Below are positions 1,967-18,112 of a stretch of 64,000 bases of DNA, in pieces. The notes under the pieces were generated by a model. The model searched no databases, had not been told where the DNA came from, and saw only the letters and a list, made by a program, of their open reading frames with translations. The translations under genes were made by a program, and so were the position numbers. Source of the stretch: Beggiatoa leptomitoformis (GTDB lineage: Bacteria > Pseudomonadota > Gammaproteobacteria > Beggiatoales > Beggiatoaceae); contig NZ_CP012373.2 of assembly GCF_001305575.3 (NCBI RefSeq), positions 2,428,261 through 2,492,260 of the forward strand, written 5' to 3'. Numbering within the stretch: position 1 is the first letter of the stretch; each line of letters starts with the position of its first letter.

Positions 1967-2785
1967 ATGGATAAAACGTTTAAGGTGGGTGTGTTTGGTT
2001 TAGCACCTAATGAAGTCAATACACTGGGTAGTATTTTTAAATTAGCCGCTACTCGAAGTCGTAAATATGTCATGGTCAGTTCGGCAGAACGGGCAAGTGC
2101 GGAAATTCTGCTGGTTGATGTGGATAGTGCTAATGCAATAAGTGAATGGAAAAGTTTCAGCGTTCATCACAACAATATTCCCATTGTTAAAGTGACCAAA
2201 GCAACACCCCCTGAACCTGCCCAAGAAACCTATTTACGCCGTCCCTTGACCCTAAAAAGAGTTTTAGAAGTTTTAGACAAAGTGACGATTGATGTACACA
2301 AGTTTGTACCTGAATTAGTTGTTGGTGGTGATACCCCCTTAGATGAAGCAACCAGTGCCGCATTACAAGGTGCTGCCCACAGTGCGCAACAAACAACTCG
2401 CACAGGGATTAAAGCATTGGTTGTTGATGACAGCCTACCTGTCCGCAAATCAATGGAAATCCAACTAGGCTTATACGGTATGGAAATTGACTTTGCTGAG
2501 ACAGGAGAAGAAGCCTTAGAGTTTGCTAAACAAAAAGTCTATGACATTATTTTTTTGGATTTGATGCTACCAGGTATTGATGGTTATAAAGTTTGTAAAG
2601 TGATCAAATCAGAGAAAATTTCTAAAAATACTCCCGTTGTCATGTTGACAGGGAAAGGCTCACGGTTTGATAAATTGCGTGGCACAATGGCTGGTGCAAG
2701 TGTGTATTTAACCAAACCTGTAGAACAAGCAAAACTGAGAGAAGTCATCAAACAGTTCCTACCCAATGCAGAAGCGGGTGGTTAA
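1967..2785 (+). CDS. pilG: PilG-like response regulator with extra N-terminal domain
   Basis: A protein of 272 residues. The C-terminal half (about 148-272) is a complete CheY-type receiver: acidic pair D154-D155 in LVVDDS, phospho-acceptor D198 in FLDLMLPGIDGY, T228 and K250 in YLTKP. Residues 1-110 look like a second alpha/beta domain resembling a degenerate receiver (ILLVDVDSA, IPIVKV, RRPLTLKRVLEVL) without a full acidic pocket. An Ala/Gln-rich linker (about 127-147) joins them. PilG of Pseudomonas is a single receiver of ~135 residues, so this protein is twice the usual size. AGGAAG precedes the ATG. As the first gene of the cluster it is probably the output regulator that promotes pilus extension. 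The family assignment rests on position; the receiver itself is certain. Confidence 0.82.
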   Translation: MDKTFKVGVFGLAPNEVNTLGSIFKLAATRSRKYVMVSSAERASAEILLVDVDSANAISEWKSFSVHHNNIPIVKVTKATPPEPAQETYLRRPLTLKRVLEVLDKVTIDVHKFVPELVVGGDTPLDEATSAALQGAAHSAQQTTRTGIKALVVDDSLPVRKSMEIQLGLYGMEIDFAETGEEALEFAKQKVYDIIFLDLMLPGIDGYKVCKVIKSEKISKNTPVVMLTGKGSRFDKLRGTMAGASVYLTKPVEQAKLREVIKQFLPNAEAGG

Positions 2786-2928: not shown

Positions 2929-3294
2929 ATGCCTATTCACAAAATTCTTGTTGTTGACGACTCTACCGTTGATCGCATGAATATTCAAAATATTGTTGCT
3001 GATGCAGGCTACCAAGTTATTGCAGCAGCCTCTGGACAGGAAGCCATTGAAAAGGCGAAATCTGAAAAGCCTGATTTAATTTTTATGGACGTGGTTATGC
3101 AACAAATGGATGGATATCAGGCATGTCGAGAAATCACTCACGATGAATCCACCAAAGACATCCCCATTATTTTTGTCACCAGTAAAGGACAAAAAGCAGA
3201 CCGTATGTGGGCAGAAATGCAAGGGGGAAAATCCTTAGTACAAAAACCCTATACGCCAGACCAAATTATCGAGCAAATCAATAATTTTAAATAA
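2929..3294 (+). CDS. pilH: PilH-like single-domain response regulator
   Basis: A stand-alone CheY-type receiver of 121 residues, the length of PilH. Active-site residues are D10-D11 (LVVDDS), D54 (IFMDVVMQQMDGY), T84 (FVTSKG) and K106 (VQKPY). PilH is the second Pil-Chp response regulator, acting in pilus retraction or as a phosphate sink. GTGAGGAG lies just upstream of the ATG. A hairpin with a T-rich tail follows directly, so pilG-pilH may form their own transcript. Confidence 0.88.
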   Translation: MPIHKILVVDDSTVDRMNIQNIVADAGYQVIAAASGQEAIEKAKSEKPDLIFMDVVMQQMDGYQACREITHDESTKDIPIIFVTSKGQKADRMWAEMQGGKSLVQKPYTPDQIIEQINNFK

Positions 3295-3611: not shown

Positions 3612-4730
3612 ATGCCATCTTATCAACTGATGCAAATCACTCGTACCCTTCTGATTTTCCTCCTCTTAATGCCTCTGGCAGCTTGTGATTTTATTAATAA
3701 TTTAACCAATGCCGCAAAGACAAGCACAACAGACACGACAAAAACGAAAACAGAAGAACAACCCATTGAAGAATTAAGCTTTGCGGCAGCACCTTATACT
3801 GCATGGATGCCTTGGTTTTTGGCAAAAGAAGAAGAAACCTACACAACATATCAAGATAAATATCGCGTCAATATTAACTTCGTCACCAGCGACTATGCGG
3901 ATACGATTGAACAATATATCAGTGGCACAGTCGATGCCGTTGCTATTACAAATATAGATGCTATCGCAAAATTGGTAAAAGAAGATGTAGAATCCGATGT
4001 TGTCCTCATCATGAGTGCTAGTAACGGCAATGATGCTATTCTCCTGCCCGCGAATGCCAACACAAACATACGTGGAAAAACCATTGGGTTTGTAGAATTC
4101 TCCTCACGTCACTACCTGTTAGACCGTTACCTTGTTAGATACCAAATTGATTTTAACGATGTCAAACTCTCAAACATGGCCGAAGCTAACCTGCCTAACG
4201 CCCTATTAAATGGTGAGGTTTATGGCATTGTTACCAGCAACCCTAATGTTGAACGTCTAGTCCGCGCCCAACAAGCCAATGTACTCTTCGATAGCCGTCA
4301 AATTTCCAATGAAATCCTTGACCTTATCGTCATTCGCCGTGAAAAACTAATTAAACAACCAGGTTTCGCACAAGCCTTATTAGCTATTTGGTTTACAACA
4401 ATGGAACGGCTACAAGGGAATAGACGCGGACCCACACTGGACAAATTAGCGCAACTAGCAGGGCTATCGCGTGAAGAATACGACAGACAAATGCAAACTG
4501 TATTGCTCAACGATACCCCAACAAAAGCCCTCTCGGCAATGCGCGACCGACGTTCAATGACCAGAGCCATGCGACATATTCGTTACTTTATACAACGACA
4601 TGACCTAATTGGAAAAGAAGCAGAATCCTATACTGAATGGGTTTCTTTCCCCGGACGTACACCCGCACTCCTCCATTACAATGGTCAAGCGTTACAAGAC
4701 TTCGTGGCACCACCTAAAGGTAATATTTAA
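3612..4730 (+). CDS. NMT1/SsuA-type solute-binding lipoprotein inside the Pil-Chp cluster
   Basis: A protein of 372 residues with a lipoprotein signal peptide: hydrophobic RTLLIFLLLMPLAAC with the lipobox cysteine at residue 25. A low-complexity Thr/Lys linker follows (about 32-50). The mature part resembles periplasmic binding proteins of the nitrate/sulfonate/taurine class: FAAAPYTAWMPWFLAKEE, GTVDAVAITNIDA, and IRGKTIGFVEFSS, a typical second-lobe opening. No ABC permease or ATPase gene is adjacent. Its place between pilH and pilI suggests, as inference only, that it delivers a ligand to the PilJ receptor rather than to a transporter. It could instead be an independent transport component inserted here. 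Confidence 0.72.
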   Translation: MPSYQLMQITRTLLIFLLLMPLAACDFINNLTNAAKTSTTDTTKTKTEEQPIEELSFAAAPYTAWMPWFLAKEEETYTTYQDKYRVNINFVTSDYADTIEQYISGTVDAVAITNIDAIAKLVKEDVESDVVLIMSASNGNDAILLPANANTNIRGKTIGFVEFSSRHYLLDRYLVRYQIDFNDVKLSNMAEANLPNALLNGEVYGIVTSNPNVERLVRAQQANVLFDSRQISNEILDLIVIRREKLIKQPGFAQALLAIWFTTMERLQGNRRGPTLDKLAQLAGLSREEYDRQMQTVLLNDTPTKALSAMRDRRSMTRAMRHIRYFIQRHDLIGKEAESYTEWVSFPGRTPALLHYNGQALQDFVAPPKGNI

Positions 4731-4743
4731 GCGAGAAACAGCT

Positions 4744-5268
4744 ATGAAAACAACATGGTTACCTCCAAGCGAAGCACTCAATCGTCCACTAACACGTCAA
4801 CAAGAAACGACACAAATAACAGGACAACTGGAAGTTCTTCGACGTTTGGGATTCCATGTAGGCAATATCGGTTTACTTATCGCACAAAATGCGACCAGTG
4901 AACTAATAGAAGTCTCCTCAATTTGCCCTATACCCAACACTGCAAGCTGGCTATTAGGGCTAATTAATCTTCGCGGTAATCTCGTTCCAATTTTTGATTT
5001 AAATTTACTGTTGGGACTAGAAAATCGAGTTAGTAAAAAAAATATGTTATTGATTTTAGGACGAGGTGAGACTGCGGGAGCTATCATTCTTGATAAACTT
5101 CCTCAACATGTCACGTTTGTCAACAGTGACAAACTGGATAGCCTCCCTCCACTACCTGCTGTACTAAAACCTTTTGCCACCAATGGTTACGAAAAGAATG
5201 GTGAGGTTTGGTTTAACTTTGATCATCAAGGTTTTTTTGAATCATTAGCGGGAAGGGTTGCCGCTTAA
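4744..5268 (+). CDS. pilI: PilI, CheW-type coupling protein
   Basis: A protein of 174 residues with a CheW domain: FHVGNIGLLIAQNATSELIE, then PNTASWLLGLINLRGNLVP, IFDLNLLLGL and a C-terminal beta core. PilI couples the PilJ receptor to the ChpA kinase at the membrane. I chose the ATG at 4744 because it follows the lipoprotein stop by 13 bases and has GCGAGAAA as a plausible ribosome site. A longer frame opening at 4609 would read through the end of the lipoprotein gene. Confidence 0.87.
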   Translation: MKTTWLPPSEALNRPLTRQQETTQITGQLEVLRRLGFHVGNIGLLIAQNATSELIEVSSICPIPNTASWLLGLINLRGNLVPIFDLNLLLGLENRVSKKNMLLILGRGETAGAIILDKLPQHVTFVNSDKLDSLPPLPAVLKPFATNGYEKNGEVWFNFDHQGFFESLAGRVAA

Positions 5269-5352: not shown

Positions 5353-7899
5353 ATGAAACTGAAGCTTAAGCAAAAAATGTTCTTCGGCTCAGCGTTCCTT
5401 GCGGTGGTATCTGTGGTGGTCACTGCATACTTTACGGGTGATATTGCCTCAAACTTAGGGCAACAAGCCCTAACGGATGCAGCACAAGAAAAAATCAGCT
5501 CTATCCGAGATACTAAAAAATCTCAAGTAGAAGAATATTTTAATCTTGTGATTAACCAGATTCAGTCTTATGCAGGTTCCCGTACCACCATAGATGCGAT
5601 GCGCGGGTTTAAAGAAGCATTTCCTCGCTTTCAATACGAGGCGGGCTTACAAGCAGATGAAGGGCCCCCTATTCCACAAACCTTACCTATCAACGAATAT
5701 CGTGATGCAGTTAAACGATATTACGAAAATGATTTCGCCCAAGAATATGGCACATTAAACGTTAATGAAACGCCAAAAATGGAGGAAATGATTCAACAAC
5801 TAAATGACAATAGCATTGCGTTGCAATATTTCTATATCGCCAATAATCCTAATCCATTAGGGACGAAAGAAGAACTATTTGCCGCAAAAGATGGTTCAAC
5901 CTACACACAACTACACCAGCTTTATCATCCTGGTATTCGTGAGTACATGAACCGTTTCATATTTGATGACATTTTCCTTGTTGATTCAGATACAGGTAAC
6001 GTTGTTTACTCCGTTGTAAAAGGCATTGATTTTTCCACCTCCCTGCTAGATGGTCCTTTTGCCAAAACGGGGATTGCAAATGTCTTTGAACAAGCTAATC
6101 GGGCTACAACCCCCGACCAATTTGCCATCATCGACTTTGCTCAATATCTACCCTCTTACGATGCACAAGCAGCCTTTATTGCAGCCCCTATTTTTGATGG
6201 TAACCTCAAAATCGGTGTTCTCATCTTCCAGCTCCCCATCGACAGCATTAACAACATCATGACCTACGACCGCGCTTGGCGGTTAGATGAATCAGGACGC
6301 TCTGGCGAAACTTTTATTGTGTCTGCGGATGGCACAATGCGAAATGACAGTCGGGCATTAGTGGAAGATAAAGAAGGTTATTTACAATCGGTTGAACAAT
6401 ATGGCACAAGCCCTGAAGCCATTAACAACATAGAACTAAAAGATACCTCAGTCGGTTTACAAAAAGTGGATAATCCCGGAACGCGAGCGGCTTTTTCAGG
6501 CGTAACAGGATTTGACATGTTTGACGACTACAAAGGTGACTTCGTACTCTCCGCCTACGCACCTATTAACGTACCCGGTTTACAATGGGCTATCTTCTCC
6601 AACCTCACAGAAACCGAATCACTAGAACGCTTGATTGCATTACGTGACGAAATCTTAACGGGTTCTATCCCTATCGCCGTTATCGCGCTAGTGTTCGGGG
6701 GACTTGCAGGGTTCTTAATTTTCGGTCGAATTGCAAAACCCATTGGCGTACTAGAACAAACCGTGTCTAAAGTTGCCGAAGGGGACTTCACCGCACGCGC
6801 AGACATTCGCACAGGGGACGAACTGGAAACACTGGCAAATGCCTTTAACGGTTTGCTGGATGACCGCTTATCTGCACTCGCTAAAGCTGAGAAAGAAAAT
6901 GAAATGCTCAACAACTCAATCATTGAATTGTTGAAAGCCTCCTTCCAACTCTCACAAAGAGATCTAACCGTTCAAGTCCCTGTGACTGAAGACGTGACAG
7001 GTCCGTTAGCTGACGCTATCAACCAGATGGCGACTGAAACCAGTAAAGTGTTGCTCAACGTTCGCCGAATCACTGACGAAGTAGAAACCGCATCCCAACA
7101 AGTGCGGGTGCAAGCAAGCAACGTCTCCAAAGTGGCAGAAGCAGAACGGGCAGTGGTGGATACCACCATGGCAGAACTCGCCGCAGCGGCAGAAGCCATG
7201 AACAAAATTGCAGAAGTTGCGCAATCATGTAACGAAATCGCAACCCAAGCAACACGCTCTACACAAACCGCGTTGGCAACCGTAACCAGCACCGTGGACG
7301 GGATGGCGGAAATTCGTGAAACCATCCATGAAACAGAAAAACGGATTAAACGCTTGGGTGAACGTTCGCAAGAAATTAGCTCCATCGTTGACATCATCAA
7401 CAACATCGCAGAACGGACACACGTGCTTGCGTTAAACGCATCCATGCAAGCAGCCGCAGCAGGGGAAGCAGGTCGCGGCTTCTCCGTCGTTGCGGACGAA
7501 GTGCAACGACTCGCTGAAAGCTCACGGAACGCAACCTCCCAAATCTCCGCGTTGGTGAAAAATATTCAGTTAGAAACCAACGATACGATTGCCACGATGG
7601 ATAAAACCATTCAACAGGTGATTGAAGGGTCACGCCTTGCAGAACGGTCTGGGGAACAGATGAAAGAAACCCAGAATACAATTTCTAACCTTGTGCAAGT
7701 GGTTGAACAAATCGCCATGGCATCACGGCAACAAGCGCAAATTTCTAACGAATTGCGTGAACGCGCCCAAACCATTCAAATGAGTACACAAGAAACAGGT
7801 AAACAGTTGGAAGAACAGTTGATTCAAACAGACCGTTTGGTGGACTTCTCCAAACAGTTGATTGAGTCCATTCGAGTATTCAAACTGCCAACCAGCTAA
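5353..7899 (+). CDS. pilJ: PilJ, methyl-accepting chemotaxis receptor of the Pil-Chp system
   Basis: A protein of 848 residues. Transmembrane segment 1 is at ~9-27, a large periplasmic region spans ~28-436, transmembrane segment 2 is at 438-460 and HAMP at ~461-512. The cytoplasmic signalling helices end with the conserved hairpin tip ALNASMQAAAAGEAGRGF. The periplasmic part contains Cache-like features (ESGRSGETFIVSADG; ISAYAPI-type core strands). Pseudomonas PilJ has ~680 residues, so the sensor region here is clearly larger and more like a double-Cache sensor. GGAG precedes the ATG. No pilK methyltransferase lies in the cluster. Confidence 0.88.
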   Translation: MKLKLKQKMFFGSAFLAVVSVVVTAYFTGDIASNLGQQALTDAAQEKISSIRDTKKSQVEEYFNLVINQIQSYAGSRTTIDAMRGFKEAFPRFQYEAGLQADEGPPIPQTLPINEYRDAVKRYYENDFAQEYGTLNVNETPKMEEMIQQLNDNSIALQYFYIANNPNPLGTKEELFAAKDGSTYTQLHQLYHPGIREYMNRFIFDDIFLVDSDTGNVVYSVVKGIDFSTSLLDGPFAKTGIANVFEQANRATTPDQFAIIDFAQYLPSYDAQAAFIAAPIFDGNLKIGVLIFQLPIDSINNIMTYDRAWRLDESGRSGETFIVSADGTMRNDSRALVEDKEGYLQSVEQYGTSPEAINNIELKDTSVGLQKVDNPGTRAAFSGVTGFDMFDDYKGDFVLSAYAPINVPGLQWAIFSNLTETESLERLIALRDEILTGSIPIAVIALVFGGLAGFLIFGRIAKPIGVLEQTVSKVAEGDFTARADIRTGDELETLANAFNGLLDDRLSALAKAEKENEMLNNSIIELLKASFQLSQRDLTVQVPVTEDVTGPLADAINQMATETSKVLLNVRRITDEVETASQQVRVQASNVSKVAEAERAVVDTTMAELAAAAEAMNKIAEVAQSCNEIATQATRSTQTALATVTSTVDGMAEIRETIHETEKRIKRLGERSQEISSIVDIINNIAERTHVLALNASMQAAAAGEAGRGFSVVADEVQRLAESSRNATSQISALVKNIQLETNDTIATMDKTIQQVIEGSRLAERSGEQMKETQNTISNLVQVVEQIAMASRQQAQISNELRERAQTIQMSTQETGKQLEEQLIQTDRLVDFSKQLIESIRVFKLPTS

Positions 7900-8045: not shown

Positions 8046-11000
8046 ATGTCCGCCATACTTCAATCTGCATTAGACGATCTTCATGCCAAAGTTGCTAACG
8101 ACGCTTATCTTCTATATGAAGCCTTAGCCGCGTTTGCTGATGGGCATACGAATGGTTATGCACCCACAGCAATAAAACAATGTATTGATTATGTTGAGCA
8201 TATTGAACATGTTGCAACACAAGCAAATTTAACAGGTTTACGGCGCATTTGTGAGCTGACCTGTCAACGTCTGCGAGAACTGCAAACTGATGAAGATCAT
8301 CAACAACAATTGTGCGAAGTCATAGAACGCTGGCCGCGTCTGGTGTCTAATTATCTTTATGCACCTACAAATGAAACAGCACAACAGAAACTTATTACGT
8401 TATTACAAGATCAAGTATGGGCTGTGCCATTAGCTGAAGAACAAATTAACTACTTAAATACCTTGCTCGCGCAAGATTTTAATGCGACTGAAGAAGCAAG
8501 CAATCAAACATTGCCAGAAGAGATTTTTTTCACAACAGATATTCAAGATTTAACAGATGTTACAGTAACTGCTACAGATGAACATGAATTAATAACATTA
8601 TCACCAGAAACGGAATTATTAGCTGATGAAAATGCAGACATTGATGAAACTGCTTTCATTGCGGATGAATTGCCTGACGTAACAGAAACAGAATTATTAG
8701 CTGATGAAAATGCAGATATTGATGAAACTGCTTTTATTGCGGATGAATCGCCTGACGTAACAGAAGCTGAATTATTAGCCAATGAAAATGCAGACATTGA
8801 TGAAACCGCTTTCATTGCTGATGAATCGCCTGACTTAACAGAAACAGAATTGTTAGCTGATGAAAATGCAGACATTGATGAAACCGCTTTCATTGCGGAT
8901 GAATTGCCTGACATAACAGAAGCTGAATTATTAGCTGATGAAAATGCAGACGTTGATGAAACCGCTTTCATTGCAGATGAATCGCCTGACGTAACAGAAA
9001 CAGAATTGTTAGCTGATGAAAATGCAGATATTGATGAAACTACTTTCATCGCGGATGAATCGCCTGACATAACAGAAACAGAATTATTAGCCGATGAAAA
9101 TGCAGACATTGATGAAACCGCTTTCATTGCGGATGAATCGCCTGACGAAACAGAAACGGAATTGTTAGCTGATGAAAATGCAGACATTGATGAAACCGCT
9201 TTCATTGCTGATGAATTACCTGACGTAACAGAAGCTGAATTATTAGCCAATGAAAATGCAGATATTGATGAAACTGCTTTTATTGCGGATGAATCGCCTG
9301 ACGTAACAGAAGCTGAATTATTAGCCAATGAAAATGCAGACATTGATGAAACTGCTTTCATTGCTGATGAATTGCCTGACGAAACAGAAGCCGAATTATT
9401 AGCCAATGAAAATGCAGACATTGATGAAACTGCTTTCATTGCTGATGAATTGCCTGACGAAACAGAAGCCGAATTATTAGCTGATGAAAATACAGACATT
9501 GATGAAACCGCTTTCATTGCGGATGAATCGCCTGACGAAACAGAAGCCGAATTATTAGCCAATGAAAATGCAGATATTGATGAAACTGCTTTCATTGCTG
9601 ATGAATCGCCTGACTTAACAGAAACAGAATTGTTAGCTGATGAAAATGCAGACATTGATGAAACCGCTTTCATTGCTGATGAATTGCCTGACGAAACAGA
9701 AACCGAATTGTTAGCTGATGAAAATGCAGACATTGATGAAACCGCTTTCATTGCTGATGAATTGCCTGACGAAACGGAAACAGAATTATTAGCCGATGAA
9801 AATGCAGACATTGATGAAACCGCTTTCATTGCTGATGAATTGCCTGACGAAACGGAAACAGAATTATTAGCCGATGAAAATGCAGACATTGATGAAACCG
9901 CTTTCATTGCTGATGAATTGCCTGACGAAACGGAAACAGAATTATTAGCCGATGAAAATGCAGACATTGATGAAACCGCTTTCATTGCTGATGAATCGCC
10001 TGACGTAACAGAAGATGAAAATGTCTTATTTTCTGATGAGCCAGTATTGAGTGAGGAAGATATCGCATGTGAAATCATGACACGTGCTGATGTGGATATT
10101 GTCGAAGACACTGATGATGAAAGCGTAGATGATACCGAACTACCTGTTTTTGACGAAATGTCACTGGCAGCCGAAGAAACCGCATTGCGTGATGCAACAG
10201 ATGATTTTATCGATGATGACTTACCCAATATAGAATCTTTAGCCGAAACAGTTTCTGTTCCTAGTGTTTTTGTGGAAACGACAGAATCTGAATATATGTC
10301 TGATAATGTAGCAAAAGCAGACATGGATATGTTAATTTCCGATGACATGGATGATACCGATTTTACAGATGTATTGCCTGTTACACATGACACAACAATT
10401 AAAACATCTGCTCAACCAGCTTCTGTTCCTACGATTAGCAGTCCTGCTATTCCTGAATTTTCTCGCTCCAGTAAGTTAGAAACGGCCGCTAATGAAATCG
10501 TCGCGGTTACAGATATTTTATCGGAAACCTTGCACAACTTTGTTACGGCAGAAGACGATAGTGATGCTTTTTTAGAAGCCATTGAAGGTTATACCAATAC
10601 GATACAGTCTTTATGGGAAAAAGCAGAAGTTGATGGTCTATCAGGGTTGCAAGAAGTTTATACTTTTATCAATGACAATATTTTTGAACTCAGTACACAT
10701 CCGCAAACCGAGCGGTTAGCATCGTATGAGCATCTCTCTCATTGGACAGAATTTGTTTTAGAGTATTTACGCAATCCACAACAAGGTGGACCATTATTAT
10801 TAACCTATTTGCAGGATAATCAATGGCTATCACCAATGGGCAAGAATACCGCCAAAACATTGTTAGGCAAGCTCACACGGGAAGGATTTGTACCCGCTAT
10901 CGAAACCAGTTACGCCAAGCGTTCTGTCAATAAACCTATTCCTGTCACCACGGTTGTTTCCACAAAACCTGTTGTTAATGAGCCAAGCCAGCCAGCAACG

Positions 11001-14000
11001 CCACCTGTAGAAAAAGAAAAACTGCTGTTGTTAGATGAGAAAATCGTTAAACCCGTTGCGCCAGTTGTCGAGACTGTCATTGTGCAACCATTGCAGTTAT
11101 CTATTCCTGAGGAAGAATCTCCCTCACTTGACATTGAAATAGATAAGCCTGATTGGGGTGGCGCATTTATTGACGATGACGTGCTATTAGCATCAGAAGT
11201 TGATGATAATGAAGTAGATTTAACAAACTCCACAGAGTTTGATACGGTGGATGCTTTACCGCTGATGGATGAGGAAAACTCGGAAGAAAATTCGTTTGCA
11301 GACGCGGAAATATTAGACACTTCTGAAACTGATATATCACTGAATGAACAAGATGAAATATCCACGCTAACGGCTGAAGAATCTGCATCTTCTTCAGTAG
11401 GCAACGATACGCTAGATACGCTAATTGCAGAAATTGAAGCGATACAGGAAGAATCAAACAAGGCTATTACCAATTTAGCGACGGCTGATGAGGAAAGTTC
11501 AGCGTTATTTGAGGCAATAGAGGCATTTACCAACCATATTCAGGCTATTTATGATGTAGCAGGACTGGCGGAGTTAGAAGGATTGCAAACCGTTTGTGAT
11601 GTGATGATGAGTCACGTTATGGAATTAGGTGAACAATCGCAAACAGCGCGCATGGCAAGTAAACCCGTGTTGGAAACTTATGTACCGCATGTGTTGGCAT
11701 ATCTCCAAAATCCGTTACAAAATGCCCCAACTTTAATTGAATACTTACAAAATCCTATTTGGACAACACCATTGGATGCAATGCAAGCAGATACCTTGTT
11801 GTTGCAATTAACACATGGTGCGTTAGAAGTAGAAAACAACGAACAGGCAGAACAAACTGATTTAAATGACTTTGTGGATGATACGCCAGAATCTATCACT
11901 GTCGTGGAAGACATATCGCCTATTGAAGAATTTACAGAAGAACCCGTTGATATTGTAGAAGATAATTCAATTACTGGAGACACAGATATTTCACTGATGT
12001 CAGCAGATATGTTGGATTTATTAATAACTCAATTAGCAGAAACTGATTTGTTATTAACGAATGGCTATGCTGAAGTGATGCAGGCTGAGGACAGTAGCGA
12101 AGAGTTGCTCAATGCGATTAGTGATTACAGCGAGTCTGTGCAAAATATCTGGGATATAACAGAACAGGCTCAATTAACAGGATTGCAAGAAGTCTGCACT
12201 TTCGTTAATGATAATATAATGGCATTGAGTAGCCAAGATAACGCCAACCGATTGATTGCAAAACCACTATTTACTGATTGGGTAACATTGGCTATTGAAT
12301 ACTTGCAATATCCAAGCAGTGGTGCATCCACACTCGTCAATTTTCTTCAACAAAAAGAATGGGCTTATCCTTTAGATTCCGAACGAGCTGATGAGTTATA
12401 TACAAGATTACTCGCACCAGCCGTTCAAACAGAACAACTTGAAACAGAGCAAGTTGAACCTGAACTTACCGAATCTAGCGAATTGATAGAATCAATAGAA
12501 TCAATAGAATCTATTGATGATATTAATGATATTAATGATATTGAAGAAGCCTCCCCAGTTTTACCCAAAATGGATATTGATGCGTCTGAAGAAGAAACAG
12601 AACTTCTTATTCAAACAGAACAAGATGAAAACGAAACGCTTGCAGCCACAATACCATCACTCGTTATTGCAGACCCTGAAATAATTGATTTACTCATTGG
12701 ACAATTTACAGACACTGCTGACGCACTGCTTGAACCCTTACAATCGCTGACGATGGCAGATGATGGCAGTGAAGAACTGCTAACAGCCGTAGAAAACTAT
12801 ACTGAACAAGTACAAGCACTGTGGGATGCCGCAGACATGGCAAAACTGCATGGTCTGCAAGAAGTTTGCACCTTTATCAATGATAATGTCATGGGTTTAA
12901 GTGCGCAGGCGTTAAATGAGCGTCAAGCGGCAATGGATGTCTTTAGCCAATGGATACCTCATTCGATTGATTATTTACAAGACCCAGCAAATCAAGCAAA
13001 TCGTCTAACCAACTATTTACAACAATCGACATGGGTAAACCCCTTAAGCGATGAGCAAGCCGCAGAATTATTAGAAAAGCTAGTGCAAAGTGCGACATCT
13101 GCGGAATCCATTGACGCACCTGCTGTTGCTGAGATACCAGAAGAACTGAGTGAAATTTACTTAGCCGACCCTGATATATTAATGCTCTTAATTGGGCAAT
13201 TACATGATGCAAAAGAACAACTCATTGACATCACGCAAGCGATTACAAACGCAGAAGATGGCAGTGAAGAACTCCTAATGGCAGTCGGGAGTTATACCGA
13301 AAATGTGCAAAGCGTGTGGGATGCGGCAGAAATGGCGCAACTTCATGGTATGCAAGAAATATGTACTTTCGTCAATGATAACGTCATGCAATTAGGCATG
13401 GCGGAACAAGCAACTCGACTATCCGCACAACCTGTTTTAACGGATTGGCTTGATACCAGCATTGCTTATTTAGAAAATCCACGTGTAGGCGTTGAGAGTT
13501 TACTAGAAATACTCCAAAATTCTGCATGGGCGCAACCCTTAGAAGAGGAGCGTGTTACTGCACTACGGCAACAACTATTGCCAACAAGCAGTGTTACGCC
13601 AACAAACACTATTCCGTTAGTGATTGCCTCACCTGATATTATCGAACTGCTCCAAAACCAAATACAAGATGTTATCGCGGGCTTGTCAACCGCTCTTGAG
13701 GAATGTGTCTCCATGGAAAATGATAATCCAGCCCTATTAGAGGCAATAGAAAACTATACTAATCAAGTACAAGCCATTTGGGACGCAGCAGAAATGGCAG
13801 GTCTGCAAGGCTTACAAGAAGTCTGCACATTTGTTAATGATAACCTCATGGCATTTGGTACCCAAGAGCCAGCAGAAAAGCTAGCTGTTAAACCTTATAT
13901 TGAACAATGGCCTATTGTCGTCTTAGAGTACCTGCATAACCCATTAGATGGCGCGCAAAAACTTATAACACTTTTACAAGCCCCTGTTTGGTCTATGCCT

Positions 14001-17000
14001 TTGGATGATGAACGGGCGATTGAATTACATCAACTACTGACACAACCCTCAACCGCAGCCGACCAAGTCAGTGCATATCAAGAAGAATTTGCTGATACCA
14101 CGTTGCCCGAAGAAGAGAGCGAAGAAGAGGAAAGTGCAGAAGAACTAGCCGAATTAGAAGTTGCAGAGGGAGAAGGTGGTGAAATTTCTCTCGGTAATGC
14201 CGAAGTTTTAGAAATTCTGCAAAGCGAATTAGAATCCGCGAAAGAAGAATTAACCGATAATTTAGCTAAATACACGAGCTTAGCAAATGATGCGGAGGGC
14301 TTTAACGAATCTGCTGAGAATTATGCTGACCAAGTGATGCGCTTGTACGCTGCGGCAGAAATGATGGGCTTAGAAGGTCTGCAAGAAGTATCAATGTTTA
14401 TTGCAGAAAATGTTAAAGCACTCGCCGAAAAAGACCTTGCCGCACGGCAAAAAGCTAAAAAACTACTAGAAACATGGTCAGATTTAGTCCTTTCTTATCT
14501 ACAATCGCCCGCGGACAATGTTGTCAAATTAGTTAATCACTTCCGTGAGCCACAATGGGCAACGCCATTAGACGACCAACAAGCCTACATGCTGTTGCAA
14601 AAACTAATGAAGGGGTCAACAGTTGAAGAAAGTGCTGAAGAAGCCGCTGCTTATAATCGGCAGACGACGGCAAGCCCTGAAGATGTCTTAATCACCCCGC
14701 CTGAAGACATTAACCGTGATTTATATGACGCATACTTGCAAGAAGTTCCACAAAATGCGTCTGATTTCACCCAATGTATTCAACATATTATCCAAGAACC
14801 AACGATTCCAGAAATTGAACGGGCGCAACGGATTGCTCACACGCTGAAAGGTTCTTCCAATATTATTGGAATTAAGGGTATTGCCAATATCGCCCATCAT
14901 TTGGAAGATATTTTAGAATACCTTGCGCAAAATCAAGTTTCTCCACCTAAAGCCTTAACTGACACCATGACCGAGGCGGCAGACTGCCTAGAAATCATGG
15001 TGGATTCGCTCACAGGGCAAGACGACCCACCCCCACAAGCCTTGCAAGTTTTACAAGATGTCTTGGACTGGGCGAATAAGATTGACAAAGGCAATTTGGA
15101 TGCGCCCTCCGCACCTCGTAAAGCCGTTCAAGCCGCGCCTGCGACTGAGGCAGGCGAAGGTGGCGAAAAAACTGAGCCGAAAAAAGCCGCTGGCGGTGCG
15201 CCTGTAGAACAAGGTTCGCCTGAACAAGTTTTACGTGTACCAACCAGCACTGTTGATAACTTAATGCGTCTCGTCGGTGAGTTATCTATTTCTATCGGAC
15301 AAATTCATGAACGGTTACGCCATGTGTTGGGAAATACTCGCTTACTGACTGACCAAGGCATGGTTTTACAGCGAAAAACGTTTGAATTAGAAAATATCGT
15401 TGATATTCGTGGGATTACGGGGGTTGAAAGTCGCTATAACAAAATGGCACAAGATGAAGAGGAATTTGACCCCTTAGAATTTGAAGAATATAACGAATTG
15501 CACAGCGTTGCTCACAGCTTTATTGAATCTATTGCTGACGCGCGTGAATTAGGCATGTCAATTCGTAATGACTTATCCGAATTAGAAACCATGCTCGTTC
15601 AGCATGAACGCTTGAATAAAGAATTCCAAGCTAACATCATGACCACCCGCATGGTGCCTGTCAGTACGGTTATTTCTAAATTACAACGAAATGTGCGCCA
15701 AACTTGCCGTATGACAGGCAAACAAGCAGAGTTAGAAGTTATTGGCACAGACATCATGATAGACAGCGACGTACTAAACAACCTCGCTGACCCCTTGATG
15801 CACATTTTACGTAACTCGATTGACCACGGGATTGAACCTGTAGAAGACCGTAAACTCTTGGGTAAACCTGAATCAGGAACGATTCTGCTACGCTTCTATC
15901 GCGAAGGCAATAGCATTGTCATGAGTTGTAAAGATGACGGGCAAGGCTTGAACTATACCAACATTCGCTACACAGCTATTCAACGTGGCTTAATTACGGA
16001 AGCCCAAGAAATAGCAGAACCTGAATTAGCCCGTTTAATTCTTATGTCAGGTTTCTCCACCAAATCAGGCGTAACCCAAGTATCTGGGCGTGGTGTAGGA
16101 ATGGACGTGGTTTATACCAACGTACGCCAAATGAAAGGCACGTTAGATTTAGTCTCAGAGACAGGAAAAGGCACGAATATTGTCATTAAACTGCCCATGT
16201 CTTTGGTAACGGTGCATGTGCTGGTTATTCGCATGGGACAAAATCGCTACGGGATTCCAACCAATGCCCTAGAACAAGCCTTAGCACCTGAGTCTGGCGA
16301 GTTTCATCAAATAGGAAATGAAATCACCTTCAAAATGGGTAAAAAAGTCTTTGCGCTGAAAAGTATGGCTTCTTTACTCAACGTACAAGGTGATGGTATT
16401 GCCGCAAATGAATACCATACCAAGCCAATTTTATTGGTTCATGAAGAAACAGGGGTGACTGCGGTTATTGTTGATGAACTACTGGATACCCATGACCTCG
16501 TGATGAAAAGTATGGGTAAATATGTGGTTAAAGTGCGTGGTGTATCGGGTGCAGCCATTCTTGGGGATGGTAGCTTAGTTCCTTTGCTAGATGTGCCAGA
16601 ATTATTGCGTTCCCCCATGCAGATGGCGTTAAGTAACTACATGGGACAACAAGAAGCAGCCGACACAGGCGCGGTAGCAAGCGTGCCAAAAGTCTTAATT
16701 GTTGATGACTCACTCAGCGTGCGGAAGTCATTATCGACACTGGTAGAAGATGCAGGGTTTGAAGTGTTGCTGGCAAAAGATGGCGTAGAAGCGATTGAAG
16801 TCATGAACCAAACCCGTCCAAATGTCATGTTAGTTGATATGGAAATGCCACGCATGAATGGTTTAGAACTGACTGCTCACGTTCGTGCCAATCCTGCGAC
16901 ACAAAAACTCCCCATTTTTATGATTACCTCCCGAACCACAGAAAAACACCGCGAGCAGGCGCGTACTGCAGGGGTGAGTGCTTATCTCACCAAGCCCTAT

Positions 17001-17054
17001 CAAGATACTGAATTATTGGATTGGATAGACAAAGGTTTAGCGGGGCAAGTCTAG
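8046..17054 (+). CDS. chpA: ChpA, giant hybrid CheA-type histidine kinase with acidic repeats and degenerate Hpt modules
   Basis: A protein of 3002 residues, the kinase core of the Pil-Chp system. Order: Hpt-like module (1-150); 18 acidic 26-residue repeats (188-655); acidic linker; seven Hpt-like modules at about 809-945, 1119-1260, 1319-1460, 1543-1680, 1709-1847, 1862-1999 and 2052-2190; a canonical Hpt at ~2223-2330 with HTLKGSS (H2265); dimerisation domain from ~2395; HATPase with ILRNSIDHGIEP near 2589; CheW-like regulatory domain ~2722-2850; C-terminal receiver ~2882-3000 with D2931. The other eight modules carry Q, M or E where H2265 aligns, by my hand alignment. Pseudomonas ChpA (~2470 residues) is described as having several functional Hpt, Spt and Tpt domains, so this architecture differs. 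Only one frame is open throughout and no frameshift is seen. Confidence 0.93.
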   Translation: MSAILQSALDDLHAKVANDAYLLYEALAAFADGHTNGYAPTAIKQCIDYVEHIEHVATQANLTGLRRICELTCQRLRELQTDEDHQQQLCEVIERWPRLVSNYLYAPTNETAQQKLITLLQDQVWAVPLAEEQINYLNTLLAQDFNATEEASNQTLPEEIFFTTDIQDLTDVTVTATDEHELITLSPETELLADENADIDETAFIADELPDVTETELLADENADIDETAFIADESPDVTEAELLANENADIDETAFIADESPDLTETELLADENADIDETAFIADELPDITEAELLADENADVDETAFIADESPDVTETELLADENADIDETTFIADESPDITETELLADENADIDETAFIADESPDETETELLADENADIDETAFIADELPDVTEAELLANENADIDETAFIADESPDVTEAELLANENADIDETAFIADELPDETEAELLANENADIDETAFIADELPDETEAELLADENTDIDETAFIADESPDETEAELLANENADIDETAFIADESPDLTETELLADENADIDETAFIADELPDETETELLADENADIDETAFIADELPDETETELLADENADIDETAFIADELPDETETELLADENADIDETAFIADELPDETETELLADENADIDETAFIADESPDVTEDENVLFSDEPVLSEEDIACEIMTRADVDIVEDTDDESVDDTELPVFDEMSLAAEETALRDATDDFIDDDLPNIESLAETVSVPSVFVETTESEYMSDNVAKADMDMLISDDMDDTDFTDVLPVTHDTTIKTSAQPASVPTISSPAIPEFSRSSKLETAANEIVAVTDILSETLHNFVTAEDDSDAFLEAIEGYTNTIQSLWEKAEVDGLSGLQEVYTFINDNIFELSTHPQTERLASYEHLSHWTEFVLEYLRNPQQGGPLLLTYLQDNQWLSPMGKNTAKTLLGKLTREGFVPAIETSYAKRSVNKPIPVTTVVSTKPVVNEPSQPATPPVEKEKLLLLDEKIVKPVAPVVETVIVQPLQLSIPEEESPSLDIEIDKPDWGGAFIDDDVLLASEVDDNEVDLTNSTEFDTVDALPLMDEENSEENSFADAEILDTSETDISLNEQDEISTLTAEESASSSVGNDTLDTLIAEIEAIQEESNKAITNLATADEESSALFEAIEAFTNHIQAIYDVAGLAELEGLQTVCDVMMSHVMELGEQSQTARMASKPVLETYVPHVLAYLQNPLQNAPTLIEYLQNPIWTTPLDAMQADTLLLQLTHGALEVENNEQAEQTDLNDFVDDTPESITVVEDISPIEEFTEEPVDIVEDNSITGDTDISLMSADMLDLLITQLAETDLLLTNGYAEVMQAEDSSEELLNAISDYSESVQNIWDITEQAQLTGLQEVCTFVNDNIMALSSQDNANRLIAKPLFTDWVTLAIEYLQYPSSGASTLVNFLQQKEWAYPLDSERADELYTRLLAPAVQTEQLETEQVEPELTESSELIESIESIESIDDINDINDIEEASPVLPKMDIDASEEETELLIQTEQDENETLAATIPSLVIADPEIIDLLIGQFTDTADALLEPLQSLTMADDGSEELLTAVENYTEQVQALWDAADMAKLHGLQEVCTFINDNVMGLSAQALNERQAAMDVFSQWIPHSIDYLQDPANQANRLTNYLQQSTWVNPLSDEQAAELLEKLVQSATSAESIDAPAVAEIPEELSEIYLADPDILMLLIGQLHDAKEQLIDITQAITNAEDGSEELLMAVGSYTENVQSVWDAAEMAQLHGMQEICTFVNDNVMQLGMAEQATRLSAQPVLTDWLDTSIAYLENPRVGVESLLEILQNSAWAQPLEEERVTALRQQLLPTSSVTPTNTIPLVIASPDIIELLQNQIQDVIAGLSTALEECVSMENDNPALLEAIENYTNQVQAIWDAAEMAGLQGLQEVCTFVNDNLMAFGTQEPAEKLAVKPYIEQWPIVVLEYLHNPLDGAQKLITLLQAPVWSMPLDDERAIELHQLLTQPSTAADQVSAYQEEFADTTLPEEESEEEESAEELAELEVAEGEGGEISLGNAEVLEILQSELESAKEELTDNLAKYTSLANDAEGFNESAENYADQVMRLYAAAEMMGLEGLQEVSMFIAENVKALAEKDLAARQKAKKLLETWSDLVLSYLQSPADNVVKLVNHFREPQWATPLDDQQAYMLLQKLMKGSTVEESAEEAAAYNRQTTASPEDVLITPPEDINRDLYDAYLQEVPQNASDFTQCIQHIIQEPTIPEIERAQRIAHTLKGSSNIIGIKGIANIAHHLEDILEYLAQNQVSPPKALTDTMTEAADCLEIMVDSLTGQDDPPPQALQVLQDVLDWANKIDKGNLDAPSAPRKAVQAAPATEAGEGGEKTEPKKAAGGAPVEQGSPEQVLRVPTSTVDNLMRLVGELSISIGQIHERLRHVLGNTRLLTDQGMVLQRKTFELENIVDIRGITGVESRYNKMAQDEEEFDPLEFEEYNELHSVAHSFIESIADARELGMSIRNDLSELETMLVQHERLNKEFQANIMTTRMVPVSTVISKLQRNVRQTCRMTGKQAELEVIGTDIMIDSDVLNNLADPLMHILRNSIDHGIEPVEDRKLLGKPESGTILLRFYREGNSIVMSCKDDGQGLNYTNIRYTAIQRGLITEAQEIAEPELARLILMSGFSTKSGVTQVSGRGVGMDVVYTNVRQMKGTLDLVSETGKGTNIVIKLPMSLVTVHVLVIRMGQNRYGIPTNALEQALAPESGEFHQIGNEITFKMGKKVFALKSMASLLNVQGDGIAANEYHTKPILLVHEETGVTAVIVDELLDTHDLVMKSMGKYVVKVRGVSGAAILGDGSLVPLLDVPELLRSPMQMALSNYMGQQEAADTGAVASVPKVLIVDDSLSVRKSLSTLVEDAGFEVLLAKDGVEAIEVMNQTRPNVMLVDMEMPRMNGLELTAHVRANPATQKLPIFMITSRTTEKHREQARTAGVSAYLTKPYQDTELLDWIDKGLAGQV
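8607..10010 (+). repeat. 18 x 78-bp in-frame tandem repeat inside chpA
   Basis: Eighteen consecutive units of exactly 78 bases, each encoding 26 residues of the pattern E-(T/A)-ELLA-(D/N)-ENADIDETAFIADE-(L/S)-PD-x-T. Variation is confined to a few positions (T/A, D/N, L/S and the x residue). Units 14-17 encode the same 26 residues, suggesting recent amplification. The array is strongly acidic, with about 9 Asp/Glu per unit and no Lys or Arg. It lies between the N-terminal Hpt-like module and the acidic linker. Confidence 0.97.
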
Positions 17055-17605
17055 TGTCAAGAGCAACATCGTTCGATGCCTATTCTAGCGCGTTGGGTTA
17101 CAACCCCAATTTGTACGTCTTTGTTGTTTTAGATGGCACACACTTATTTATTCCACAAAAAGATGTGGAAACAGTGGAAATTATTGCAGATTTACATCCC
17201 ATACGGACCGAACAAGGATTTATTGGGCGATTTGGTGGACACGGACAAGAATCCTATGTTTTTTGTTTAGCAGAAGACTTGTCCCTTATTACAGATGTAC
17301 CTGAAGATCGAGAATACTTTTTCCTACTAAAGCCACCCGCTGACGTACAAGCAGCTATACAAGCAGGAACAGCAGACAACACATTATTAGGTGTTGTCTG
17401 TAACGAAGTAGAAACAATTAATTTTCAAAAAGAAAATCTCTATCCGCAACCCTTGCCTGATATCATGAAACTTCCCCAGTCGCCTATCAGTCAACTGGTG
17501 ATTTATCACGATAAACTGACGTATATTTGTCCCGGTGATACGCTATGGCAATATTTAACATTACAATCAGCACAGTTTATTGCTGAGAATGAAATCAAAC
17601 GCTAA
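17054..17605 (+). CDS. CheW-like protein of the Pil-Chp cluster (first)
   Basis: A protein of 183 residues from a GTG at 17054, which overlaps the last base of the chpA stop. A longer frame from the ATG at 17021 is possible but reads inside chpA. The sequence YVFVVLDGTHLFIPQKDVETVEI opens like a CheW domain, and LLGVVCNEVETINF resembles its second barrel. It is divergent, so CheW/ChpC-like is a fold-level guess supported by position. It probably binds the ChpA-PilJ array as an auxiliary coupler. The overlap implies translational coupling with chpA. Confidence 0.65.
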   Translation: MSRATSFDAYSSALGYNPNLYVFVVLDGTHLFIPQKDVETVEIIADLHPIRTEQGFIGRFGGHGQESYVFCLAEDLSLITDVPEDREYFFLLKPPADVQAAIQAGTADNTLLGVVCNEVETINFQKENLYPQPLPDIMKLPQSPISQLVIYHDKLTYICPGDTLWQYLTLQSAQFIAENEIKR

Positions 17606-17620
17606 CCACAGGGCTTAAAC

Positions 17621-18112
17621 ATGGCGGATACAATAGAAAAAACCAGCCGTGCATGGATACTAGATTTTGGCAGAGGCTTACAAGCGGCTGTTGGTTTGCA
17701 TGAAATGTCACAAGTCGCACTGTCCCCGCCGATTTTTGAAGTTCCCTATACCCCACACTACTGTGATGAAGTGTTAGTCTGGCAAAACCGTTTATTACCC
17801 GTCTTAGATGTGCCGAGTTTATTGGAAGGACAGAAAATTTTTCGCGCACAACAAGAGATTGTGGGTATCGCTGTTTATCAAAAAAACTTGGCGAATATTG
17901 GTTATGCTGGGGTTCACCTCGCCAGTTTACCGATAGGCATTTTTGTGACGGATGAACAAGCCTGCGCATTACCGCAACACTTACAACATTGGCAACCATT
18001 AGCCATTGCCTGTTTTAATATAGATCACACCATTATCCCTATTATTGATTTGGCGCGCTTGTTTTCACCCACTGTTCGACACCTAACATTCCCAAAGATA
18101 ACACCGCAATAG
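17621..18112 (+). CDS. CheW-like protein of the Pil-Chp cluster (second)
   Basis: A protein of 163 residues. The segment PHYCDEVLVWQNRLLPVLDVPSLL matches the CheW pattern of a proline, a hydrophobic run and LPVxDxxxLL. IIPIIDLARLF near the C-terminus repeats the motif. It follows the first CheW-like gene by 15 bases, with an AGGGC-type ribosome site before the ATG. It is likely another coupling protein comparable to ChpC. It is the last gene of the cluster; the next gene is convergent. Confidence 0.72.
   Translation: MADTIEKTSRAWILDFGRGLQAAVGLHEMSQVALSPPIFEVPYTPHYCDEVLVWQNRLLPVLDVPSLLEGQKIFRAQQEIVGIAVYQKNLANIGYAGVHLASLPIGIFVTDEQACALPQHLQHWQPLAIACFNIDHTIIPIIDLARLFSPTVRHLTFPKITPQ

Follow-up and report, generated by a model that had tools for sequence, protein, structure and literature searches.

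The chpA gene of Beggiatoa leptomitoformis, located in a 64,000-nucleotide stretch of contig NZ_CP012373.2 (positions 2,428,261 to 2,492,260; hereafter the window), encodes a giant CheA-type kinase that carries a long acidic tandem array near its N terminus (Table 1). Tandem Repeats Finder (TRF) reported one long array in the window, at 8605-10013, with a period of 78, 18.1 copies, 92% matches, and 0% indels. Cutting the DNA every 78 bp from position 8607 gave 18 gapless units, all in the chpA frame, as a preliminary description of this DNA had stated, and the 19th 78-bp stretch is unrelated to the units (23 of 78 bases match the consensus). Chance is excluded as the source of the periodicity, with a lag identity of 1.0 for the array against a maximum of 0.37 in 410 block-shuffled ChpA sequences of the family described below.

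The period of 26 amino acids given previously is real but is not the smallest unit, being a doubled 13-mer whose halves, ETELLADENADID and ETAFIADELPDVT, are identical at 6 of 13 positions. The lag-13 BLOSUM score of 60 was reached by none of 5,000 shuffles, and at the DNA level a codon shuffle gave a p value of 0.0018 for a lag of 39. The 18 units comprise 17 distinct DNA sequences and 11 distinct peptides. Units 14 to 17 encode one and the same peptide, as had been noted, though only units 16 and 17 are also identical in DNA, the other pairs being 2 to 3 bases apart. Variation is mainly found at residues 2 (T/A), 7 (D/N), 22 (S/L), and 25 (V/E/L/I), with single exceptions at residues 10, 12, and 16, while L4, L5, F17, and I18 are invariant in all 18 units. 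The array adds 468 residues to the protein; these had been described as acidic throughout, but only 183 of them (39%) are. With no lysine or arginine, its net charge is −183, and its charge-hydropathy score of −0.30 falls on the disordered side, whereas modules 1 and 2, which flank it, score positive. An antisense open reading frame (ORF) of 616 amino acids that spans the array matches no Pfam family; it is apparently held open by the 78-bp period and was taken as a by-product of the repeat rather than as a gene.

The N-terminal part of ChpA was resolved with a profile hidden Markov model (HMM) built from six modules of this same protein. It retrieved eight modules, at residues 4-149, 805-951, 1118-1263, 1317-1463, 1541-1687, 1706-1852, 1860-2006, and 2049-2195, so that, with the one Hpt domain recognized by Pfam, several Hpt-type domains precede the kinase core. 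Of the 655 residues separating modules 1 and 2, 468 belong to the array, in agreement with the position first proposed for it, between the first Hpt-like module and the next. A motif count over the whole of ChpA found the phospho-histidine motif HxxKG once, at residue 2265, rather than at several histidine sites; it is absent from module 1 and from the other FimL-like modules. The count alone was used for this purpose, as a MAFFT alignment of the modules with Hpt was judged out of register; the anchored residue counts (172 of 206 modules, 10 with His) were set aside as well. Several histidine sites are a trait of the Pseudomonas aeruginosa protein and no requirement for the class. Modules 1 and 2 searched on their own against Pfam gave nothing worth naming (best E value, 0.17), and a Foldseek search with the N-terminal model described below ranked a designed protein first and the CheA P1 domain next (1i5n; probability, 0.99; TM score by target, 0.60; E value, 0.6). 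The designation "FimL-like" is borrowed from the reported homology between the N termini of FimL and ChpA, both of which recruit PilG (PMC10519157).

Table 1. Features of the chpA region in the window (positions are those of the window; residues are those of ChpA)
Feature	Position	Strand	Basis or remark
PilG-like response regulator	1967..2785	+	about 145-150 residues ahead of the receiver domain; name inferred from operon position
PilH-like response regulator	2929..3294	+	name inferred
NMT1/SsuA-like substrate-binding protein	3612-4730		between the PilH-like and PilI-like genes
PilI-like CheW protein	4609..5268	+	listed start overlaps the preceding gene, true start probably further in; name inferred
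PilJ-like chemoreceptor	5353..7899	+	dCache below cutoff, HAMP, MCP signal; name inferred
chpA, 3002-aa kinase of the type IV pilus (Tfp) class	8046..17054	+	Pfam Hpt, H-kinase_dim just below cutoff, HATPase_c, CheW, Response_reg
FimL-like pseudo-Hpt module 1, residues 4-149	8055..8492	+	module HMM; predicted helical, block pLDDT 65-91
Linker 1, residues 150-804 (655 aa)	8493..10457	+	net charge per residue −0.36; block pLDDT about 29-45, predicted disordered in context
Antisense 616-aa ORF	8543-10393	−	no Pfam family
18 x 78-bp array, 26-aa unit of two 13-aa half-repeats, net charge −183	8607..10010	+	TRF, unit cutting, composition
Conserved 3' flank FSDEPVLSEEDIA	10029..10067	+	adjoins the last unit; aligned in the other Beggiatoa (L050)
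FimL-like pseudo-Hpt module 2, residues 805-951	10458..10898	+	module HMM; predicted helical, block pLDDT 78-96 away from the edges
Pseudo-Hpt modules 3-8 with shorter linkers, residues 1118-2195	11397..14630	+	module HMM
Canonical Hpt, residues 2226-2314	14721..14987	+	Pfam, motif count; only HxxKG motif, His 2265
HATPase_c, CheW, and receiver domains, residues 2581-2994	15786..17027	+	Pfam
194-aa ORF	17021-17605		between chpA and the ChpC-like gene; overlaps the chpA end as listed; no Pfam family
ChpC-like CheW protein	17621..18112	+	name inferred

The identity and giant size that had been attributed to this ChpA hold. Pfam places the HATPase_c, CheW, and C-terminal receiver domains, and the dimerization domain (H-kinase_dim) scores 22.9 bits against a cutoff of 23. 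Genes for two response regulators, an NMT1-like protein, a CheW protein, and a chemoreceptor precede chpA on its strand, and the 194-residue ORF and a second CheW gene follow downstream. This neighborhood is a Pil-Chp-type operon, in which the individual genes were named by analogy, and the kinase probably steers pilus-driven movement in this filamentous sulfur bacterium. The NMT1/SsuA-like gene is unexpected within such an operon and perhaps encodes a ligand-binding partner of the chemoreceptor. The ChpA of Pseudomonas aeruginosa, compared by description only, likewise has a multi-Hpt N terminus, a kinase core, a CheW domain, and a C-terminal receiver, and its operon also contains two response regulators, CheW proteins, and a chemoreceptor. 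In contrast, six histidine-bearing Hpt domains are reported for it (PMC10542144), against the single HxxKG of the B. leptomitoformis protein with its eight FimL-like modules and long, repeat-filled acidic linker.

The other Beggiatoa in the order (genome G005, locus L050), presumably Beggiatoa alba, has a ChpA of the same architecture, with a core that is 90-91% identical and an array at the homologous place. There, the array lies between the same flanks, and the last units and the flank FSDEP[VI]LSEEDIA align with those of the window. The best shared 13-mer, DIDETAFIADELP versus EFDESALLADELP, is identical at 8 of 13 positions (p = 0.0015). Unlike the window array, that of L050 has a 27-residue unit in approximately 9.6 copies, and half of the unit is unrelated. 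Synonymous divergence (dS) within the array is 0.29 in the window and 0.32 in L050, while between the two species it ranges from 0.96 to 2.06 over five ChpA segments. The arrays therefore expanded, or were homogenized, separately after the species split, and the recent growth claimed for the window array is borne out relative to species divergence. Some arrays in the family are not young, as the units of L052 differ at a dS of 1.0. No lag with significantly closer units, as expected of block duplications, was found in the order of the window units (lowest p value, approximately 0.13).

Copy number had also been suggested to vary between strains. The window is part of a single contig of 4,265,317 bases, and this genome is most likely that of strain D-402T: the two published primers for the B. 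leptomitoformis sulfur-globule gene match it exactly, spanning 90 bp, and the 151-residue ORF there is intact, whereas a transposon disrupts this gene in D-401 (PMC7356093). The differences listed between strains D-401 and D-402T comprise 10 inserts of 853 bp, four of 782, one of 378, and one of 11, together with four single-letter indels and one substitution (PMC7356093). None of these inserts is a multiple of 78, so the same 18 units are expected in both strains. The suggestion thus gains no support, but the two strains are near-identical and the test is a weak one. An assembly artifact was considered and set aside. One of the two PacBio RS II libraries of D-401 had fragments below 7 kb removed (PMC5920184), a cutoff longer than the 1.4-kb array, PacBio RS II was also used for D-402T, and both genomes were later Illumina polished (PMC7356093); judged from these published methods rather than from reads, collapse of the array is unlikely.

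The order was searched in 42 genomes, including that of the window. A ChpA-type best match was obtained in 41, whereas G036 (52% complete) yielded only a second CheA. The resulting family set of 41 ChpA sequences, several of them cut at contig ends or masked (a further contig, L102, was left out of the array test), contains 8 that reach a lag identity of at least 0.6 and 11 that reach at least 0.5, leaving 30 below 0.5, a value reached by none of the 410 block-shuffled sequences. The eight array-bearing proteins have periods of 26 (window), 27 (L050), 19 (L052), 42 (L061), 14 (L070), approximately 51-57 (L080), 34 (L081), and 51/77 (L083) residues. Those of the Beggiatoaceae L052, L061, L070, L080, L081, and L083 are in-frame acidic arrays situated in linkers or, for L052 and L080, before the first detected module, in sequence that is cut or masked at that end. 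The arrays of L052, L061, L070, and L081 differ from the window array in period and present no significant match to its unit. Array-bearing linkers thus recur in the ChpA of some relatives, with differing arrays. Outside the family, 3 of 49 sequences (L120-L168, taken as outside from an identity of 48% or less and a biased sample drawn from the best 80 of 150 matches) pass the test, namely L122, with a Pro-Glu dipeptide run, together with L150 and L155 (57 amino acids), compared with 0 of 490 shuffled sequences. The family linkers longer than 100 residues that were listed vary widely in length and all carry a net negative charge (−0.07 to −0.39), whether or not they contain repeats; it is therefore the acidic linker, and not the repeat, that is constant in the family.

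A motif common to all family arrays was rejected, since only the other Beggiatoa matches the window unit clearly (p = 0.0015, as above), with a weak similarity in the 13-residue array of the second CheA of G003, a genome of another genus (p = 0.033, uncorrected for seven comparisons). A 13-mer profile run over the linkers of other species gave no convincing site (lowest p value, 0.02, uncorrected, among the best 16 matches). Looser regular expressions were commoner in the array-masked linkers than in shuffles (e.g., 14 versus a mean of 3.4); this excess was not built on because homologous linkers are counted several times.

Linker 2 contains a peptide of its own, PDWGGAFIDDDVLLASE (11148-11198, residues 1035-1051), with the pattern [PA]D[WL]G.A[FY]I[DE][DE][DN]..LASE. 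It is kept in six family ChpAs (window, L050, L051, L052, which starts with S, L059, and L070), where its scores of 46-61, from a profile built on five of these six, compare with a maximum of 13.9 over 100 sets of shuffled linkers. The peptide is likely a docking motif, the rest of the linker being variable. Derivation of the array by amplification of this peptide was rejected for the window unit (p = 0.24); among ten units compared with the peptide, only that of G009 (42 amino acids) matched, at an uncorrected p value of 0.008.

Within its own genome the unit is confined to chpA, where all 13 matches fall. An order-wide search for the unit retrieved, beyond the window, only the chpA of G005 and the second CheA of G003 (E value, 0.0035). 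In a collection of genome contigs, from which this genome was possibly left out, none of 95 pattern matches was confirmed. Both CheA homologues found in the B. leptomitoformis genome at an E value of 1e-60 or less carry an acidic array. The second (L088, G000:C1:2776500-2785500) has a core approximately 35% identical to that of ChpA and an unrelated unit (p = 0.76) of 33 residues, in eight copies of which the last is degenerate. The second CheA of the other Beggiatoa (L189) shows a weaker repeat at the same 33-residue lag, and repeats were found in 4 of 41 second CheAs overall (L088, L189, L212, and L228) in a comparable test that used a shorter window and no shuffle control. As a baseline, 20 evenly spaced stretches of the same genome, 400 kb in total, were scanned, and no acidic in-frame array like that of ChpA turned up. 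The arrays of 120 bp or longer in this sample were TPR-like repeats (by eye), repeats of the GIEKGIEQ and GIQQGIQK types, a short 54-bp repeat with Pro and Glu in 2.4 copies, and a 115-bp repeat that does not keep to one open frame. A long TPR-like array (by eye) with a 141-bp unit lies in L188 (10840-15554; G000:C1, at about 4.00 Mb), partly in an open frame of 726 amino acids.

The ratio of nonsynonymous to synonymous divergence (dN/dS) among units is 0.16 in the window, 0.28 in L050, 0.11 in L052, and 0.66 in the second CheA L088, the last three values including a degenerate end unit. A hand count of 13 synonymous versus 9 nonsynonymous states in the window array gave p values of 0.0002 to 0.01 for transition weights of 1 to 8. 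All of these figures are indicative only, as units are not independent lineages. They bear on the rather unlikely alternative that the array is a neutral product of slippage, which an acidic disordered linker tolerates and which has no function of its own. The ratio in L088 fits neutrality better, periods and units vary by species, and 30 of 41 family ChpAs, several of them truncated or masked, stay below the array cutoff; the low ratios in the window and L052 speak against neutrality, as does the presence of an acidic array in both CheA homologues of a genome whose 400-kb sample has none. The purifying selection and the four fixed hydrophobic residues would instead suit a multivalent docking site, in which each 13-mer (acidic, two hydrophobics, ADE) is a short linear motif for a binding partner, for instance a response regulator or a polar hub, and copy number sets the local capture strength. 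The 13-mer shared with the other Beggiatoa and the weak resemblance to the G003 array point the same way. We nevertheless regard this role as unlikely, since the unit finds no match in five of the seven further arrays set against it (p = 0.24 to 0.93), the unit is no copy of the linker-2 peptide, and it has no confirmed relative in the genome contigs and no match in its own genome outside chpA.

AlphaFold2 (AF2) was run on the N terminus in context, using an alignment of 15 N termini (window plus 14 of 17 loci), and on eight units alone. In context, modules 1 and 2 are predicted helical, and residues 149-805 have a predicted local distance difference test score (pLDDT) below 50 almost throughout, without secondary structure. 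The isolated units are modeled as a beta-solenoid with strands at a 26-residue period (mean pLDDT, 84.8; predicted template modeling score [pTM], 0.80). Composition (high charge, low hydropathy) and the in-context prediction point to disorder, but the model of the isolated units does not. The solenoid, together with the genuine 13-residue half-period, raises the prospect of a folded, possibly metal-stabilized acidic rod, a rigid ruler that would fix the distance from module 1 to module 2. This is very improbable: one of the five eight-unit models scored 33.4, the linker has block pLDDT values of about 29-45 in context, and structural matches in the PDB are weak (best E value, 0.0029; TM score by query, 0.22). 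Moreover, AF2 is reported to give beta-solenoids with stacked uncompensated charges for perfect repeats of random sequence (PMC11795689), the window units being near-perfect rather than perfect. No calcium-binding repeat of the RTX or EF-hand kind was found in Pfam (E value of 0.001 or less) or by PDB sequence search (E value of 10 or less), so the proposed binding of metals or cations has no support in these scans. Both structures are predictions, and the in-context result and the charge are given more weight than the isolated solenoid.

The array is probably, though by no means certainly, a disordered acidic tether, expanded recurrently, to which a module that recruits a regulator is attached, and the flexible, negatively charged spacer proposed at the outset remains the leading role. 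Its growth would have started from a 13-residue seed that the other Beggiatoa also has and proceeded in frame, through slippage or unequal exchange involving 78-bp units, each step adding 26 residues without a frameshift. The tether would link the FimL-like pseudo-Hpt module 1, which would recruit a regulator, to the rest of ChpA, leaving it mobile and far from the kinase body, and the negative charge would hold the chain extended and soluble. The proposal that the spacer sets the reach between a module and the kinase core is only partly right: the array connects module 1 to module 2, the core is reached only after seven further pseudo-Hpt modules and the true Hpt, and module 1 lacks H-x-x-K-G. 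Several points weigh against the tether. The conservation of the unit peptide exceeds what a pure charge spacer would need, the isolated units are confidently modeled as folded, and the in-context disorder is drawn from a thin alignment whose other members lack this array. A neutral or positive charge occurs in some of the short linkers of the family, and the putative role of module 1 as a PilG recruiter is carried over from the homology of FimL and ChpA.

No description of such arrays in ChpA was recognized among the titles and abstract beginnings of the open-licence papers listed, in keeping with the initial statement that none was known, although similar arrays do occur in the genomes of relatives. 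The main text of a survey of CheA architectures has no words beginning with "repeat" or "disordered" and states that what Hpt domains lacking the phosphorylation site do in ChpA-type kinases has yet to be determined (PMC10542144). The array is striking but ordinary as a class and mechanistically modest, and it is apparently undescribed in ChpA. A broader proposal, quite doubtful at present, is that the ChpAs of filamentous sulfur bacteria repeatedly reinvent acidic arrays as an evolvable tether, whose in-frame steps in length and charge would tune regulator capture and filament reversal and whose 13-residue-based version might fold on cations into a rod. The array may also provide a naturally occurring example of the beta-solenoid artifact of AF2, disordered in context and confidently folded alone. 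It could be removed in frame, which makes the question of its function testable. The separate growth of arrays between modules, with peptide conservation inside the array, suggests that selection can act on tether length or charge in these kinases.
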